Origin: Kiritimatiellia bacterium
GTDB lineage: Bacteria; Verrucomicrobiota; Kiritimatiellia; RFP12; UBA1067
DNA length: 33,728 nt
Direction of reading: 5' to 3'
Assembly: GCA_017646325.1 (NCBI GenBank)
Contig: JAGCMU010000031.1
Span: forward strand, 1 to 33,728
Shown one piece after another: positions 15,950-24,264 of the stretch (positions are counted from its first letter, which is position 1; each line of letters begins with the position of its first letter). Below the pieces are notes generated by a model. The model was given only the letters and a program-made list of their open reading frames with translations, was not told the origin of the DNA and did no database searches. Both the position numbers and the translations under genes were made by a program.

Positions 15950-15978
15950 TTGACTTTTTTCTAAATTTTGTTTATTAT
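15950..15978 (+). promoter_or_regulatory. Sigma70-type promoter of the plus-strand four-gene unit
   Basis: TTGACT (15950-15955), 17-bp spacer, TATTAT (15973-15978): five of six matches in each box. It lies in the 172-bp divergent gap with gyrB. A small inverted repeat (CACGA at 15984-15988, TCGTG at 15996-16000) sits at the predicted start of transcription and could be an operator or a 5' hairpin. Confidence 0.7.
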
Positions 15979-16042: not shown

Positions 16043-17131
16043 ATGGAAATTACATCAATAGACTCAGCCAATCGCCAACCCGTAAAAATCGGGGTCATTG
16101 GTTTAGGCCGTTCTTTTTTTACTCGACACCTTCCTATTTTGCGCAAACTAAACGGATTTTTTAAATTAACCGCCATATGCGATATCGCAAAAGAACGCCG
16201 CACAATTGTAGAAAAAGAATTCCCGGACGTTCATACGTATCGCCAAATCAGCGATATGCTTGACGATCCGGATATTGACATCATCGACATCGCATTACCG
16301 ACGGCCGACCACGTGAGCGTCGCTATCGATTCGCTCAACAGAAACCGCTGGACCATGGTCGAAACACCAATCGCCACATCGATCGACGATTTAAACCGTG
16401 TACGGGCGGCAGCCGTAAAAAGCAGAAATAAATTACTCTTCTTCATGCCTGAAGTTTTCAGCCCAGACTTCTTGCTCGCAAAGCAGGTTATGGCAATGAA
16501 GGAAAGTCCTCTTGACGAGATCCACGAAATCTGTGTCCGCAACTACGATTATATCCGCCGCGACGATTGGCAAACGGTAAAACGCTGCGGAGGCGGCTCT
16601 TCCTGGTATCATGGGCCTGCCGCCGTTTTTCAGGCATACGATTTGTTGAAACCGTTCCCCCCTGCCCAGCTTTGGAGCGAACTCAAACGCGTAGCGTCTC
16701 TTGGAGATGCAGAAGATTTCACCCGCATCATTCTCCGTACGAGAACGCAATTGACCGCGCGCATTGAGATCAACGGAGGATACTTGGGCGAAAGAAAACC
16801 GTCTTTTTCCTTGACGGGATTGCGCGGCAACTTCTCTGTTTTCCCAGGCGAAAGCGAAGGTGTTATCAGGGCAATCGATCCGGAATTCAAATTCCCGCGC
16901 CGCCGCTCGAGCGTTCGCATGCCGCCTCTCGATGATATGCACGAACAATTCCCGATGGTAGACATTCCCGTCAAATTGAACAATGCAAATCTTGTCGGAG
17001 ACGAAGCGTTCTATCATGCGGTATACAATTCCGTATGCAAGGCCGTCCTCTTCCCCGTGTCATTTGAAGAGTACAACGAAGTCACCAGGTATTTGCAAAT
17101 AGCAAAGAATTCCTCTTCTTTCAGCAATTGA
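16043..17131 (+). CDS. Gfo/Idh/MocA-fold protein lacking the usual catalytic residues
   Basis: A 362-aa protein with the Rossmann domain of NAD(P)-dependent sugar oxidoreductases: KIGVIGLGRSFFTRHLP binds dinucleotide, and D73-D82 plus IALPTADH fit the fold. The family hallmark EKP is changed to ETP (Glu107-Thr108-Pro109), losing the Lys that assists hydride transfer. The later GG...D.G.H..D motif reads GGGSSWYHGPAAVFQAYD (183-200), with Ala where the catalytic His normally sits. It may bind NAD(P) or a sugar nucleotide without classic dehydrogenase activity, or use other residues. ATG 16043 has GGAGAG upstream. It heads a plus-strand unit with half a glycosyltransferase nine bp downstream, which points towards glycan or surface-sugar work. 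Confidence 0.85.
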   Translation: MEITSIDSANRQPVKIGVIGLGRSFFTRHLPILRKLNGFFKLTAICDIAKERRTIVEKEFPDVHTYRQISDMLDDPDIDIIDIALPTADHVSVAIDSLNRNRWTMVETPIATSIDDLNRVRAAAVKSRNKLLFFMPEVFSPDFLLAKQVMAMKESPLDEIHEICVRNYDYIRRDDWQTVKRCGGGSSWYHGPAAVFQAYDLLKPFPPAQLWSELKRVASLGDAEDFTRIILRTRTQLTARIEINGGYLGERKPSFSLTGLRGNFSVFPGESEGVIRAIDPEFKFPRRRSSVRMPPLDDMHEQFPMVDIPVKLNNANLVGDEAFYHAVYNSVCKAVLFPVSFEEYNEVTRYLQIAKNSSSFSN

Positions 17132-17140
17132 TCTTTTTCA

Positions 17141-17803
17141 ATGTCGGAGCGGCCTACAGTTTTAATAATTTCCTCAACACGTGTTCACGTAAACACTATG
17201 GAGATTTTGCGGATACAAGATACCGTATCCGCTCTTCTTGATTCAGGTTACGATGTCGATTTGCTGGTACCTCGGAAATCGGCACTGCTTTCTATGGCAA
17301 TACGCCCGGAAGCTCGTATAATCACTCCTTTCAAAACATTTTTCTCAAACGATCCGCCAGACAGGCCTTCTCTGCGCAGATGTCTTGTAAAGACCATCAT
17401 CTTCTTACACGCATACCATTTGCTGTCAAAAAAAGAATACGTCGCTTTGCATGGAATTGACGATGCCGCATCTATCGTCCAATCGCTCGATCGCATGACG
17501 ATACAAAAATATCCTTATATTGCAGAATATCTTCAGCCGTTCTCCCGTCACAAATACAAGTTGAATATTTTAGCTCCATTTTCCCGAATGAACGAGCGCT
17601 CTGCAATCCGCCATGCCTCGGCCGTGATTTTCCCTGACGCGGAAACAAAAGATGTTTTCAACGGAAAAATTCCACATGCGAGAGTTTCCGTGCTGCCTGA
17701 TCCGCACACGGATTTAGTTCCTGAAAAATTCACGTTCAAGGATTTTTCCATCGCTCTTATCAGAATTTACGACTATATCCTTCGTCCTAAGAAGAATGCT
17801 TGA
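17141..17803 (+). CDS. Stand-alone N-terminal half of a GT-B (GT4-like) glycosyltransferase
   Basis: A 220-aa protein that resembles only the acceptor-side Rossmann domain of GT4 enzymes. It opens PTVLIISSTRVHVNT, then has ALLDSGYDVDLLVP (as in L...GH.V.v), ALHGIDDAA (as in H.H....), and ends near SAIRHASAVIFPDAE and VSVLPDPHTDL (as in AD.vi..S and v.PNg.D). The donor-binding half with its E.FG..E motif is absent, and only 22 bp separate the stop from the next gene, so no remnant lies downstream. It may be a regulator or partner, or a relic. No Shine-Dalgarno is visible before ATG 17141, nine bp after the previous stop, so translation may be coupled. Function is inferred from fold only. Confidence 0.7.
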   Translation: MSERPTVLIISSTRVHVNTMEILRIQDTVSALLDSGYDVDLLVPRKSALLSMAIRPEARIITPFKTFFSNDPPDRPSLRRCLVKTIIFLHAYHLLSKKEYVALHGIDDAASIVQSLDRMTIQKYPYIAEYLQPFSRHKYKLNILAPFSRMNERSAIRHASAVIFPDAETKDVFNGKIPHARVSVLPDPHTDLVPEKFTFKDFSIALIRIYDYILRPKKNA

Positions 17804-17825: not shown

Positions 17826-18905
17826 ATGAAATCAATTTTCCGTTCAATCAAAAAGATTTTACATTCTAAACAAAACCGTGCTTCTGCAAAAAAGAAGAAA
17901 AACAAAAAACTCACGTTTGCGCAAAAGCTGCGTAAAACAGCGAGATACTTTTCGCTCATCGTTTTTGCTCTGTGGCTTACTCTTTCTCTTGTCGGGAACT
18001 GGTATGTCCACCATCCGCAGCAATGGCTCAAAGACAACCGTTCGTTCTTGACCGCGCCGCTTGAATACTTTGGAAACCGTTTTGCAATCTTCTCCGACGC
18101 TATGGGCTTTATGGGGCACGACGCCGTTTACGAGTCCGACGAACCTGCACCTGAGGGGCAAGTGTTTTTTGCGGGCAAACCTGTACGCGTCGACAATCCC
18201 GCCCCTGATGACGTCATCGTCTTGAACCGCGACAACTTTGTAGTCGGATGGTCACCTAAAAACAAGTGTCCTTCGTGGGTCGCCTACCATGTAACAAAAG
18301 AATCTCGTCACGACGTTCAAGACCGTCCCAATTTCCAACGCGACAAAATGGCTCCTAATTGTCCGCCGGCAAACGCGCTTGCCCGTTCCGGCTACGACCG
18401 CGGACACATGGCCCCTAACCATGCCATCGTTTCCCGTTATGGCACAGACGCGCAAAAAATGACGTTTCTCATGAGTAATATCGCTCCGCAAAGACCTTCT
18501 CTCAACAGCGGAATATGGCGTGAGCTGGAACACCGTATTGCCAATTTCTGGACTGCCAGATACGGAGAAATCTGGGTTATCGTCGGAACAATCTTCAACC
18601 CTGAGATGAGACAAGTAATCGGCGGATCGGGAATAAGCGTTCCAGACTCGTTTTATATGCTCATTCTTGCGCAAGAAGGCGTAAATGTCCGATCTCTCGC
18701 CGTTGTAGTTCCACAGGAAATCCCATACAATGCTTTTCCGCTTCATTACATCGTGACGATCAACGAGCTTGAACAAATGACAGGATATGATTTCCTTTCA
18801 GATCTGCCAAACTTCATTGAGCGTCCTCTTGAAAGCGATCGCCCGACACGCCTTTGGCCAATCCGCTATCGCGACATCTTCAAACTTTTCTCATTGCGTT
18901 TTTAA
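17826..18905 (+). CDS. Membrane-anchored DNA/RNA non-specific endonuclease (NucA/DRGH type)
   Basis: A 359-aa beta-beta-alpha-metal nuclease. The N-terminus is very basic (KKKKNKK at 22-28), followed by a membrane helix at ~41-58, so the enzyme is probably tethered with its catalytic part outside the cytoplasm. The DRGH motif is YDRGHMAPNHA (190-200) with His194 as general base. Asn218 (MSNIAPQ) and Asn227 (LNSGIW) fit the metal-binding and conserved helix positions of Serratia/NucA nucleases. Family roles are degrading external nucleic acid for nutrients or defence, but a housekeeping function is equally possible. I see no immunity-gene candidate beside it. Its TAA overlaps the apbE ATG as TAATG. 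Confidence 0.92.
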   Translation: MKSIFRSIKKILHSKQNRASAKKKKNKKLTFAQKLRKTARYFSLIVFALWLTLSLVGNWYVHHPQQWLKDNRSFLTAPLEYFGNRFAIFSDAMGFMGHDAVYESDEPAPEGQVFFAGKPVRVDNPAPDDVIVLNRDNFVVGWSPKNKCPSWVAYHVTKESRHDVQDRPNFQRDKMAPNCPPANALARSGYDRGHMAPNHAIVSRYGTDAQKMTFLMSNIAPQRPSLNSGIWRELEHRIANFWTARYGEIWVIVGTIFNPEMRQVIGGSGISVPDSFYMLILAQEGVNVRSLAVVVPQEIPYNAFPLHYIVTINELEQMTGYDFLSDLPNFIERPLESDRPTRLWPIRYRDIFKLFSLRF

Positions 18906-19867
18906 TGTCAAAACAAACCACTAATAAAATCATCGCGTTTGCGATTATGGCGGCAATGCTTTTTGCCGCTATTTTCACCTTGAAAAAACCGTCGGCGCGT
19001 CTCCATATCGCAAAATGGAATTCCATGGGGACTATCGCCACCATATCGACATACAACAAAAACATTCTTCCTGACATTCAACGCATCGCAAAAACGACTT
19101 TCGACGAGTTTGAGTTTCTCCTCTCGTCTTGGCTACCCGATTCCGAGTTGAATAAAATTTCAAGCCTTGCAGGCACATCAACTGAAAGAGAAATTTCGCC
19201 GCTCGTTACAAACGTCTATTTTTCCGCTTTTGAAATGATGAGGATATCAGAAAACACTTTCAACCCATTCATAAAACCTTTAATGAACCTTTGGGGTTTT
19301 TCTCTTTCTCCCGAAACGAAAGAGATTAAAAAACCTTCTCCTTCCGAAATAAAAAGACTGCTCTTCACGATTGATGACGTATCTTTAAACGGCAATAAAA
19401 TTTCCTTGAAGAAAAAAGGAATGCGTCTTGATCTTGGAGGTATCGCAAAAGGCGCCGCCATTGATGAAGCCCTTTTACGAATCGCTTCACGCTTCCCTGA
19501 CGATTCAGTCATCATCAACTTTGGCGGAAACATCAAATCGCAAAATGCAAAAACGGACAAAACACTTATTCGCAATCCACTCACAAACGGTTACATCTCA
19601 ATAACAAATGATGTTCCTAAAAATTATGCCATCGCAACGAGCGGCGGATACGAGCGCTACGTTGTAATTGACGGAGAAAAAGTTCCGCACATCTTAGACG
19701 GACGAACGGGATATCCGGCAAAGAAAGTAACGTCCGTAAGCGTAATCGCCCCTTCTGCTACTTTGGCCGATGCTTTATCGACCACTCTTTTCATCATGGG
19801 CGAAGAAAAAGGAAGTGACTTTTTGAAAAGCCACTTCCCCGAAGCACAGGCTATCTGGATAAAATAA
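18905..19867 (+). CDS. apbE: FAD:protein FMN transferase (ApbE)
   Basis: A 320-aa ApbE-family enzyme that links FMN covalently to Thr/Ser of flavoproteins such as NqrB/C or RnfD/G, on the outer face of the membrane. An N-terminal membrane/signal segment (IIAFAIMAAMLFAAIF) fits the exported form. Motifs: LDLGGIAKG (175-183), INFGGNI, ATSGGYERY, HILDGRTGYP (262-271) and the ADALSTTLFIMG metal site. ATG 18905 overlaps the stop of the nuclease gene; a longer frame from 18854 lies within that gene and is rejected. No Shine-Dalgarno is visible, so reinitiation is likely. No flavoprotein target is in the window. Confidence 0.95.
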   Translation: MSKQTTNKIIAFAIMAAMLFAAIFTLKKPSARLHIAKWNSMGTIATISTYNKNILPDIQRIAKTTFDEFEFLLSSWLPDSELNKISSLAGTSTEREISPLVTNVYFSAFEMMRISENTFNPFIKPLMNLWGFSLSPETKEIKKPSPSEIKRLLFTIDDVSLNGNKISLKKKGMRLDLGGIAKGAAIDEALLRIASRFPDDSVIINFGGNIKSQNAKTDKTLIRNPLTNGYISITNDVPKNYAIATSGGYERYVVIDGEKVPHILDGRTGYPAKKVTSVSVIAPSATLADALSTTLFIMGEEKGSDFLKSHFPEAQAIWIK

Positions 19868-19890: not shown

Positions 19891-22800
19891 TTATTTGACA
19901 TCTACGACCTTTTCTCCTTCTAAACCTGTCGCGATATCTCTGATTACAACCGTATACGCTCCGAGATCCGAGTATGGGAATTGAAGCGGGATTTCACGTG
20001 TCTTAGGTTCAACGGTGAAGATATTTTCTCTATTTGCAATTATCTTGCCGTCAGGTCCCTTCACGCTCAAACGATAAACACCGCCTTTACGCAAAACCTT
20101 CGTTGAAAGATTCACGTAATCACCGCCCTTGACAGAAGTTTTGTCAATCGCAACGGCCGGTGCCTTTTGTTCCGTTTTGAACTGAGCATAAAGCTTGAAA
20201 GGCCTTTCGAGAGATGCGATATCAACCTTTGTGCCGCGTGTGACAAAGCCCTTATCGCATTCGTAAATCCATCCTTCGCTACCAAACTCAAGCGTTACGG
20301 CTTTACCGCAATTTTTCGCAAGGGTTGTAAAGCCCACTACTTTTTGTTCAGGAGTTTCGCGGACTCTGAGTACGAGACCTAAATCTGGAAGTCCCTTCAC
20401 GCTTTCACGTTGTTTAACACCGACACTTCCGACGATTTCCAACATTTTTTCATCTTCGATAGTGCGGTCGTACTTTATCCACATTCCCTTCAATGGAGCT
20501 TCTTCGCGACGAGCGAGATATTGATCGAGAACACCAGGTTCAATATCCGCATAAATCTTACCGCCGCGCTTCACAAAGTCCTTAAGAGCGGAAACTTCTT
20601 CATCGGAAAGAGATGAAATTCCGGGAAGGAACAAAAGCTTATAATCAGACAGCTTTTTCAAAGTTGTAGGCGTTACAAAGGAAACATCAAGACCTTTACG
20701 GTAGCAGAAGCGAATAATGTCTCTGCCTCCTTCAGAAGGCGACTTGAACTCGTCTGAAAGAGTCGTTGCCAAAGAGCTTGGCCACGAGTAATATATCGCA
20801 AAGCCGTCTTTTCTAAGAGGAGTGCGGATCATGTACGAAGCTAAGCCATGCTTGAGCTGCATGTGGTTTTCATTTATCTTTTGTACGTACGGAGCCAATG
20901 TCAAATCACCGGCAAAAGCCCCTTCCGTACTTCCGATAATACCGGAGAACCACTCATCGGCATTTGCTCTGCCGGTGATAAGATATTCCCATTGATTTCC
21001 AGGGAATCCATCGCGTGACGAACGCAAATATCCGCCCCACCACATACCGCGCACGCGATCGGGGGCGATTGATTTAAGAACTTCATCCAAATAAACATCG
21101 CGGTATGGACCCCAAAACTCAAGATTCTTGACTGTTTCTTCAAGGTTGCCGGCGGGCGAGCCTTCAGCGCCGACACGGGCCTTTGGATCGTACTTCTTAA
21201 TGACTTCACGACACATTTGGAATGTATCGGAATACATTTGCGCTGCATAACTTACCTGATCAAGCCAGCTTGGCCAATCGCCTGCCTTCTTTGATTCAGC
21301 AATCGTCATACGCTTTACCTCGTTAAATGATTTGAGCGTTGTTTTATGAGCATCATTGTATCTTTCGATTGAACCGTAGCGTTTCTTTAAGAAGTCGAAG
21401 AAATATCCATCGTCAATCGCATCGCCAAAGCCGATGTTATGCGTATATGTGCACTCGTCTCCAAGATTGTATACGCTAACGCCATAAGGAGCGCAACGCT
21501 TTACACGCGGAGTAAAGTATTGTTCAAACACCTTGCGGATTTCGGGACGGTAGCAATTGAAATTATTACGAATCTTTTCAAGTTCCGCCTTGTGGGCACT
21601 GTTAGTTCCCTTTGGAAGAGGAGCTGTGCGCCAAGCAGTTCCATTTGTACTTCCACTAAGACAAACACGCGTTATGTACGGTGCTGCGCGTCCGTTGAAA
21701 ATAGCGGAAAGATTTCCAGATTCACCGAGGTGGGTATCATACCCCATCTTCTCGATTACTTGCGGATAGAAAAGTTCCGTTATTCCGCCCTGACCGATAT
21801 CCTCCCACATAATCATCGTGTAATCAGGGAAACGGTGATTCGGGAAGAAAATAAGCTTTCTCTTGGATGCCAACTCTTTTCCGTCAGAAGTGAGAGTCGC
21901 TTTAAAGACACCTGCAAGCGTTTCAAAGTTACGCTTAGGCAAAGAGACCTTCACATTGCGCGCACCCTTTGCAAACGCCTTCTCGCCTTTGATACGGACT
22001 TGAAGATACGGATGGTCTGCAATTTCGTATTTAAGCGTGCCTGATGAAGGAGCAGGATACTGCCATTCAATATTGAATGTCGGGCCAGTCCCTTCTGCGA
22101 CAATCGTCGTATTGGTGCCGTCTATCGTAACATCACCGACGCACGATTCCTTTGCGAACGGATATACCGCGACAAAATCACACTTGTCGCCCTTCATAGG
22201 AATGACATCGAACCAATATTTTCCTGAAGGAACTTTGGTGAGATCTAATTTATAAAGATTCTTTCCGCGTGAAAGTTTCATATGTTCATCAAAAATGACG
22301 GCATTTTCCGTATTGCGAAGGCGAATGCGGGCATTATCGACAAAACCGTTCGCATCATCGACAGAATAAGCAAAGAATGTAGCGTTGTCGGAGAAAGACT
22401 CTCTTTCACGCCCTGAACCGAAATCGATAACGCTTTGGATGTCATTTCCTTGAGCCCAACGTATTATGTTGGCGGCAAATGCCGAACGCGTTTCAAAATT
22501 ACCCTTCCATTCAAGCGACCACGCACCGGGATTTTGGAAATCAATTTCTGCGACACGGCCTTTCCCGAATTCATAAAGAGCCATCTTTGCCTCGGTTGAA
22601 TTCATATTGGGACTCTTGCGAGACGCCTGCTTTACGCCAGGTATTTGAGCGTAAGGAACTAAAGAAGCGAGAGCACGTCTATCGCAATCTTTGCGTACAA
22701 GTTTCTTTGAAAGAGCGGCGTTCAATTTTCCTCCCAAAAGAACAAGTCCTACTCCGTTGTCACGAACACGGCGAAGGATTTCATAGCGGTAGTGTGCAGG

Positions 22801-24264
22801 GATTTTATCAAAGGTAAATCCGTAAAGAACAATCACATTGGGGTTCTTTTCGAGGAGTGTTTCAAATTGCGCTTGCTTATCAAGAAACGTTCCATGTGAA
22901 AGCGGATCTTGATAAATGCCGGTTGCACCAAAGCCACCTGGGTGAAAGAGCGCGTCTTCATATCCAAAACGCTGTTCCAATTCGATGACTTCGCGAAACG
23001 CCGTTCCGATTCCGCAGATAAACAACGGGCGAGATTTTTCTCCGATATTTTTTTCGCACCAATCAAGATGAGGCGTCACATACGCATTCTTAATACGGTT
23101 GTGGCGATACCATCCGTTGTGGCCGTTGTATTTCTTTGGCGGAGTAAGGTCGTACTTTCCTGCAAGAGGCATTTCAATAGGTTCGGCCTTAACGGTTTTA
23201 TCTGTAAGAGAACTTGCCTTAATTTCGTATGAAAGGATGCGAACCTTGTCTACAATTTCGCGGAACTGCTTGATGGAAGCGAAAGAAGCATCGTATTTTG
23301 CAAGCTCGTTCGTATAAGAAACTTTTAAGGAAGCGAGACTCTTTGCAATATCAGAGCGTTTTGATTTGGCAACTTTCTCTTCAAGCTGAGATACTTTATC
23401 GAGAAACTCCTTTTCAAGGTTTTTCTTTTCGGCGTCAAGATCGCTGATATGCGTGCCTGTAAGATCGTGAACATAAACCTTGCCGTCAATCATGATTCCC
23501 CAAAGAATATTAAGGCGGGATTCAAGAAGAGAGAGTACTTTCTTTGCATCGGGCTTTGTTCCATCGGAAAAATAAAGATATCCGAACTTATTGGAAGCAT
23601 ACCCTGACGCACCTGGAGCACTTGTGGAAAAGCCCTTCCCCCAGCCAAGAGCGCCAAACCTAAAACGAGAATGGTTGAATGTCCAAATATCACCAGGCTT
23701 TGGCCCTTGACGATTATGGAAGGCGCTCCAAGGAACAAAAAATTCAACCTCCCAGCGGTCATCCAAAATCTTCGCCGCGCATGAAAGACCTGACGCCATC
23801 CAATTTTGATCCATGTTGGCACTATCCATACGCCACGCAGAATCGTATTTACCTAAGGAGTTTACGATAAATTTATAATAACCGATACCGGCCGCTTCAG
23901 GGTCAAAATATATTTCGCCACTATCGTCTGTCCAAATATCACCTTGAAAGTTCTTCGTACAATTTTGGCGCAATTTGGAAATATTGTCTTCCCAGTTTCT
24001 AATACCCGTATAAATACCTTTATCATCATAAACGATCATACAATCCGTCTTCGTATTAGTTACACGACGAGGATTAGGCTTGTGGTATTCATAATAATCA
24101 GAATGGACATGCGCCGTCTTCCAGCACTCATCATCAAGAAGACCATCCATCTTGGGGGATTCTTTCGCAGGCATTGCCACTTGAAAAGCGAGTTCTCTCA
24201 ATTCCGCGCCATTTACACCAAGTGCCGCAAACAATGAAGTTAATCCAACAACAATTTTTTTCAT
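19891..24264 (-). CDS. Large exported GH42-like protein with CBM9-like N-terminus
   Basis: A 1457-aa secreted protein. The signal peptide MKKIVVGLTSLFAALGVNGA precedes a CBM9/DOMON-like domain (~25-235: DGLLDDECWKTA, VYDDKGIYTGI). A charged coiled coil follows (~275-345). A flavodoxin/GATase-like domain covers ~400-620. A TIM-barrel region (~850-1150) recalls GH42: YNLGDECTYTH with Glu937, then FLKKRYGSIERYNDAHKT, and STEGAFAGD with Glu1114. The Glu spacing of 177 residues suits a GH42-type acid/base and nucleophile pair (inferred). A second GATase-like domain (~1182-1250) matches the beta-galactosidase trimerisation fold, and two beta-sandwich stretches end the protein. ATG 24264 has GAGGA upstream. 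The substrate is unknown; beta-galactoside cleavage is a guess from the fold. Confidence 0.8.
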   Translation of the reverse strand: MKKIVVGLTSLFAALGVNGAELRELAFQVAMPAKESPKMDGLLDDECWKTAHVHSDYYEYHKPNPRRVTNTKTDCMIVYDDKGIYTGIRNWEDNISKLRQNCTKNFQGDIWTDDSGEIYFDPEAAGIGYYKFIVNSLGKYDSAWRMDSANMDQNWMASGLSCAAKILDDRWEVEFFVPWSAFHNRQGPKPGDIWTFNHSRFRFGALGWGKGFSTSAPGASGYASNKFGYLYFSDGTKPDAKKVLSLLESRLNILWGIMIDGKVYVHDLTGTHISDLDAEKKNLEKEFLDKVSQLEEKVAKSKRSDIAKSLASLKVSYTNELAKYDASFASIKQFREIVDKVRILSYEIKASSLTDKTVKAEPIEMPLAGKYDLTPPKKYNGHNGWYRHNRIKNAYVTPHLDWCEKNIGEKSRPLFICGIGTAFREVIELEQRFGYEDALFHPGGFGATGIYQDPLSHGTFLDKQAQFETLLEKNPNVIVLYGFTFDKIPAHYRYEILRRVRDNGVGLVLLGGKLNAALSKKLVRKDCDRRALASLVPYAQIPGVKQASRKSPNMNSTEAKMALYEFGKGRVAEIDFQNPGAWSLEWKGNFETRSAFAANIIRWAQGNDIQSVIDFGSGRERESFSDNATFFAYSVDDANGFVDNARIRLRNTENAVIFDEHMKLSRGKNLYKLDLTKVPSGKYWFDVIPMKGDKCDFVAVYPFAKESCVGDVTIDGTNTTIVAEGTGPTFNIEWQYPAPSSGTLKYEIADHPYLQVRIKGEKAFAKGARNVKVSLPKRNFETLAGVFKATLTSDGKELASKRKLIFFPNHRFPDYTMIMWEDIGQGGITELFYPQVIEKMGYDTHLGESGNLSAIFNGRAAPYITRVCLSGSTNGTAWRTAPLPKGTNSAHKAELEKIRNNFNCYRPEIRKVFEQYFTPRVKRCAPYGVSVYNLGDECTYTHNIGFGDAIDDGYFFDFLKKRYGSIERYNDAHKTTLKSFNEVKRMTIAESKKAGDWPSWLDQVSYAAQMYSDTFQMCREVIKKYDPKARVGAEGSPAGNLEETVKNLEFWGPYRDVYLDEVLKSIAPDRVRGMWWGGYLRSSRDGFPGNQWEYLITGRANADEWFSGIIGSTEGAFAGDLTLAPYVQKINENHMQLKHGLASYMIRTPLRKDGFAIYYSWPSSLATTLSDEFKSPSEGGRDIIRFCYRKGLDVSFVTPTTLKKLSDYKLLFLPGISSLSDEEVSALKDFVKRGGKIYADIEPGVLDQYLARREEAPLKGMWIKYDRTIEDEKMLEIVGSVGVKQRESVKGLPDLGLVLRVRETPEQKVVGFTTLAKNCGKAVTLEFGSEGWIYECDKGFVTRGTKVDIASLERPFKLYAQFKTEQKAPAVAIDKTSVKGGDYVNLSTKVLRKGGVYRLSVKGPDGKIIANRENIFTVEPKTREIPLQFPYSDLGAYTVVIRDIATGLEGEKVVDVK

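Follow-up and report, generated by a model that had tools for sequence, protein, structure and literature searches.

Glycosyltransferases of family GT4 (PF13439/PF00534), such as MshA, GlgM and sucrose-phosphate synthase, are built from an N-terminal Rossmann domain, a second Rossmann domain that binds the donor and a terminal crossover helix. In a GT-B enzyme this helix lies packed against the N domain. GT-B enzymes of the Alg13/Alg14 type are made as two chains, the N domain being a polypeptide of its own that has a donor-domain partner. The N domain of a GT4 enzyme has also been isolated in the laboratory. The structure 6LDQ is an engineered A-domain of the T. elongatus sucrose-phosphate synthase comprising residues 27-220 and 406-426, which was the only version that the authors could crystallise (PMC7264703).

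Oxidoreductases of the Gfo/Idh/MocA family combine a NAD-binding motif with a catalytic Lys in the motif EKP and a catalytic Asp and His in D-x-G-x-H. The yeast regulator Gal80 has the Gfo/Idh fold without catalysis, and biliverdin reductase is an E-x-P variant that uses other residues. Active sugar oxidoreductases usually have a xylose-isomerase-like TIM barrel protein as their partner. Our search of the literature on Gal80 and on EKP-lacking Gfo proteins found little. In scyllo-inositol dehydrogenase, Ala at the K, D or H position abolished activity (PMC5969746).

Here we analysed a 33,728-nucleotide stretch of DNA (the window), which is one contig of a metagenome-assembled genome (MAG) of 1.4 Mb and 63% completeness. 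It encodes a Gfo/Idh/MocA-fold protein (the Gfo protein) followed by a protein resembling one half of a GT4 enzyme (the half-GT). The closest named relatives that have the half-GT are Kiritimatiellae MAGs, also filed as Verrucomicrobia or Lentisphaerae, several of which came from rumen, omasum, rectum or horse faeces.

Organisation of the locus

The features of the locus are listed in Table 1. The Gfo and half-GT ORFs are spaced by 9 bp and the nuclease and ApbE genes come next on the same strand, as originally predicted. The gyrB gene lies upstream of the Gfo gene in divergent orientation. A promoter candidate at 15950-15978 (TTGACT-17-TATTAT) is plausible but weak, because 10 promoter-like hits were found in the region compared to 5.6 +/- 2.0 in shuffles. 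ApbE was seen beside the nuclease in the window only and at none of the other half-GT loci examined. Further downstream, positions 19891-24264 on the minus strand encode a 1457-aa protein with only CBM9-like and beta-galactosidase trimerisation-like Pfam matches. Genes of GC-rich relatives were called with our own codon-model caller, and their starts may be off.

Table 1. Coordinates of the features in the window
Feature	Position	Strand	Size	Basis or remarks
Gfo/Idh/MocA-fold pseudo-oxidoreductase	16043..17131	+	362 aa	ORF, Pfam, alignment, AlphaFold model
Domain-excised GT4 protein (half-GT)	17141..17803	+	220 aa	N-terminal Rossmann domain and GT-B C-terminal crossover helix
Crossover-helix codons, residues 200-215 (FSIALIRIYDYIL and flank)	17738..17785	+		Homologous to the last helix of full-length GT4 relatives
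DNA/RNA non-specific endonuclease (Endonuclease_NS, YDRGH intact)	17826..18905	+		Lys-rich N terminus, one predicted transmembrane stretch
ApbE-like FAD:protein FMN transferase	18905..19867	+		ATG (18905) overlaps nuclease stop

The Gfo protein is maintained and appears to lack the catalytic machinery of its family

The Gfo protein matched the Pfam family GFO_IDH_MocA (PF01408) at 8.8e-19. Its AlphaFold model (pLDDT 89.7) matched DgpA2, with a fold TM of 0.8, and YvaA, and oxidoreductases of the YvaA/DgpA type are its closest solved structures by sequence and by fold. The NAD-binding G20xG22R23 and the acidic D47 are retained. Alignment to solved Gfo/Idh structures placed E107-T108-P109 at the EKP site, Tyr189 at the position of the catalytic Asp and Ala193 at that of the catalytic His, whereas the aligned YvaA has EKP and D-x-G-x-H. 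The protein is thus a member of the family by fold and NAD-binding motif but has 0/3 residues of the K-D-H triad. The ETP motif and the Ala in place of His had been noticed in the original prediction, and the alignment confirmed both and added the missing Asp. Among the Gfo/Idh paralogues in the same genome, five of the seven others examined keep EKP.

Matches to the Gfo protein were detected in 57/60 relatives (E <= 0.001), some of the weak ones being expected to be paralogues. Orthologues at class level have EKP and ...NWGPH, in which the canonical Asp is already Asn and the His is present. These EKP-keeping orthologues often adjoin a gene for a xylose-isomerase-like TIM barrel (L195, L201, L203, L207-L209). 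Families f2, f5 and f6, of the same order as the window's family, have both EKP and non-EKP members, all with the His retained; some members of each (L178-L185) have EPP, ETP or ESP. The loss of the Lys in three sister families that kept the His suggests that the EKP Lys was lost repeatedly and independently. In the window's own family (f1), Lys and His are gone from every Gfo member examined, with ERP or EQP in one genus set and ETP or ESP in another, and the ETP/ESP proteins form one clade with a support of 100. The residues R172, D175 and W176, the motif GDAxD and most parts of RRRSSVR show little or no variation, and the dN/dS of the Gfo protein was 0.05-0.30, similar to the 0.10-0.13 of EKP-type enzymes. 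As judged from these alignments and rates, the Gfo protein is maintained yet is without the catalytic machinery of its family.

The missing canonical triad would be compatible with a different chemistry, and a Gal80-like binding role and a new chemistry both appear possible. Gal80 was among the PDB sequence matches of the Gfo protein (8e-11), a weak, superfamily-wide likeness to a yeast regulator. In another reading, the Gfo protein would still be an enzyme, with an E-x-P variant and other residues doing the work, and the half-GT would be an unrelated neighbour. Its NAD-binding motif, the invariant polar residues R172, D175, K215, D222, D225 and R288, the several sister-family members in which the Lys alone is missing, and the many genera in which Gfo and half-GT genes are unlinked would all suit this reading. 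We nevertheless regard it as unlikely, since no member of the family has any residue of the canonical triad left and position 108 varies freely among T, S, R and Q.

The GT4 protein has lost its donor-binding domain by an apparent internal deletion

The half-GT matched only the GT4 N-terminal family PF13439 (1.6e-6), and the C-terminal GT domain is absent. Alignment to full GT4 enzymes revealed that exactly the second Rossmann domain, of ~170 residues, is missing. The half-GT ends in a helix, FxxALxxxYxYV, that is the same as the end of the full enzymes. In 64/64 comparisons between half and full proteins, this helix aligned best with the terminal helix of the full GT, in one register, and not with the deleted part. 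A simple C-terminal truncation was ruled out by the retained terminal helix. AlphaFold predicted one Rossmann domain and a confident helix at residues 199-214 (pLDDT 89.8, pTM 0.89), and the Foldseek matches of this model were GT4 enzymes and 6ldq. The original prediction of only an N-terminal GT-B domain was accurate in that a single GT-B domain was found; it had missed the crossover helix. The half-GT resembles 6LDQ, where the N domain is likewise joined directly to the crossover helix in a form stable enough to crystallise. In 6LDQ this is a laboratory deletion, whereas that of the half-GT came about in evolution and several genera have kept it.

Full-length homologues at the corresponding gene position, together with the GT4 fold matches, indicate a shared origin with GT4 enzymes. 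However, Pfam, alignment and model all failed to show two Rossmann domains with a C-terminal nucleotide-sugar binder, and the half-GT cannot be a complete GT4 enzyme because the donor-binding domain is absent. Within the N domain that remains, one basic, hydrophobic helix has a net charge of +3 to +5 among the half-GTs and a moderate amphipathicity, which is lowest in the window protein. In PimA and like GT4 enzymes, a basic-hydrophobic helix of this type binds membranes.

The half-GT (about 190-246 aa) was found as a single copy in each of 28 genomes, every one of which belongs to family f1. Sequencing error had been raised as an objection to both proteins. It fails for the Gfo protein, because the Lys is absent from every family orthologue examined, which also argues against chance; for the half-GT, error or frameshift was ruled out by its presence in 28 separate genomes. 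In genera g3, g4, g5 and g12 the corresponding position next to the same nuclease is taken by a full GT4 of 389-394 aa. The full GT and nuclease genes of genus g12 (L129, L130) are separated by one for a class I/II aminotransferase; a GNAT acetyltransferase gene, identified in L130, follows.

All half-GTs form one clade in the tree, with a support of 100. The stem of this clade has 1.63 changes per site compared to 0.44 and 0.82 on the matching branch of the nuclease and the Gfo protein, respectively, and therefore the remnant changed fast when the domain was lost. Within genera, the dN/dS of the half-GT was 0.05-0.26, similar to that of the nuclease and the full GT, and 16 residues are invariant among 12 half-GTs. 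The protein is shortened further in genera g10 and g14; in genus g6 the zinc-ribbon and nuclease genes described below are kept, and no GT was found. The simplest reading of these data would be a single excision followed by reductions and losses.

The same series across genera, from a full GT through 220 aa and about 190 aa to absence, could also mean that the half-GT and the Gfo protein, both devoid of catalytic residues, are former enzymes heading for loss and with no present role. This is very improbable given the selection measured on both proteins, the open frames in 28 genomes, the 16 invariant residues and the confident fold. Instead, to judge from alignment, tree and substitution rates, the half-GT is a protein kept long under purifying selection after one clean internal deletion in a gut bacterial family.

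We also compared the histories of the two proteins. Within family f1, E[T/S]P coincides exactly with the clade whose members have a half-GT or lack any GT, and the ERP/EQP forms occur in genera with a full GT. A strict co-occurrence of ETP and half-GT, which had been proposed for testing, was not supported, the loss of the Lys being older and wider. From these distributions, the catalytic loss in the Gfo protein is family-wide and older than the loss of the GT domain.

No separate donor half was found in 12 half-GT genomes

Like the N domain of Alg13/Alg14-type enzymes, the half-GT is a polypeptide of its own. We used the missing domain to search 12 half-GT genomes, five of which have a completeness of 90% or more and a contamination of 5% or less, for a donor-domain subunit such as that of Alg13/Alg14-like enzymes. 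No stand-alone or orthologous C-terminal donor half was found in these 12 genomes; the search returned only unrelated full GT4 enzymes with 25-34% identity (best 3.8e-7). There was also no donor-domain gene in the conserved neighbourhood of the half-GT. The suggestion that the half-GT is part of a split enzyme whose other half lies elsewhere is therefore not supported.

In such an enzyme the half-GT would be the acceptor domain and would depend on a second polypeptide for its donor domain, like Alg14 on Alg13. Two-chain GT-B enzymes exist in nature, an engineered GT-B pair did assemble (PMC10937113), and the half-GT is under purifying selection with a conserved structure. However, mixing the separately made A and B domains of sucrose-phosphate synthase did not restore activity (PMC7264703), and the very long branch on which the domain was lost is unlike a split with conserved function. 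Together with the outcome of the search, this makes a split enzyme highly unlikely.

The half-GT belongs to a nuclease cassette

The gene downstream of the half-GT encodes an endonuclease (PF01223, 2.8e-38) whose D-R-G-H motif reads YDRGH in the window; RGH is present in 12/12 aligned sequences. The nuclease directly follows the half-GT in 24/24 distinct informative loci, often with the genes touching or overlapping; in this count, six named loci that are genomes already counted were entered a single time, and L162 breaks off within the half-GT. A zinc-ribbon protein (CxxC..CxxC, roughly 70-85 aa, tail KSRTIRIEL) precedes the half-GT in most loci, its gene at L146 having been read from the sequence. 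In the window the zinc-ribbon gene is missing from 17132-17140, unlike in L069-L075, L079 and L146, and a search of the rest of the same genome, which is 63% complete, gave only weak matches (E 0.001 and 0.08). The nuclease and the zinc-ribbon protein both persist without a GT in genus g6, and the half-GT is therefore dispensable for them.

The Gfo gene lies directly upstream of this cassette only in the window's genus and in g13-like relatives, with the order Gfo, zinc-ribbon, half-GT, nuclease. Other genera have the Gfo protein without a half-GT, and in most genera it is unlinked to the cassette. A strict pairing of Gfo and half-GT was ruled out by this adjacency in one subgroup only. The nuclease is the invariant neighbour of the half-GT, and the Gfo/half-GT pair is thus a local version of a nuclease cassette. 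The two had been proposed to form a non-classical module; they are both conserved and non-classical and stand in one gene row in one subgroup, but the pair is not the unit.

The catalytic domain of the nuclease is probably on the opposite side of the membrane from the half-GT, in which case contact would be possible only with the N-terminal tail or the membrane segment of the nuclease. PADLOC found no model that matched the Gfo protein, the half-GT, the nuclease or the zinc-ribbon protein, and a known anti-phage defence system was rejected on this basis.

Discussion

Collectively, these results suggest that the locus holds two successive pseudo-enzymes rather than one split enzyme, and that the half-GT, coupled to the nuclease, probably acts in binding and not in catalysis; we give this reading a probability of roughly 0.6. 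In the first step, as the sequences show, a Gfo/Idh sugar oxidoreductase lost its Lys and His in the family ancestor; the fold and the nucleotide-binding motif stayed, together with new residues that do not vary. Later, in one branch within the family, a GT4 enzyme encoded tightly upstream of a membrane nuclease lost its donor-binding domain. Alignment, model and tree show an internal deletion that spared the N domain and the crossover helix. By branch length and dN/dS, the remnant evolved rapidly in this branch before it came under constraint again.

Sugar transfer by the half-GT would be improbable with the donor domain gone. Most likely it works in the cytosol, perhaps at the membrane periphery, as a binding or scaffold protein that would use the old acceptor face and the basic-hydrophobic helix. 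It would be co-produced with the nuclease, and also with the zinc-ribbon and Gfo proteins where these are linked. The gene coupling and the sequence would agree with such a binding role, cytosolic or membrane-peripheral, next to a nuclease anchored in the membrane. The Gfo protein, nucleotide-binding and apparently non-catalytic, could act as a Gal80-like sensor. Together, the data suggest that two former sugar enzymes may now do some non-catalytic job. A more elaborate and rather doubtful extension is a four-protein module of dead Gfo protein, zinc-ribbon protein, domain-excised GT and membrane nuclease, in which the retired enzymes would be metabolite sensors by which an active surface nuclease is controlled or localised.

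Pseudo-enzymes are a known kind of protein, and the half-GT and the Gfo protein would be further examples; the domain-excision history read from these sequences is unusual and well documented. Annotation by domain name would label both proteins as enzymes, which calls for caution. The Gfo neighbour adds another series, independent of that of the GT, which leads from EKP..H to an inactive form that is conserved. At the position of the half-GT, related genera offer a natural series of intact, excised, further reduced and lost GTs, a clean system in which to ask what a GT-B acceptor domain does without catalysis.
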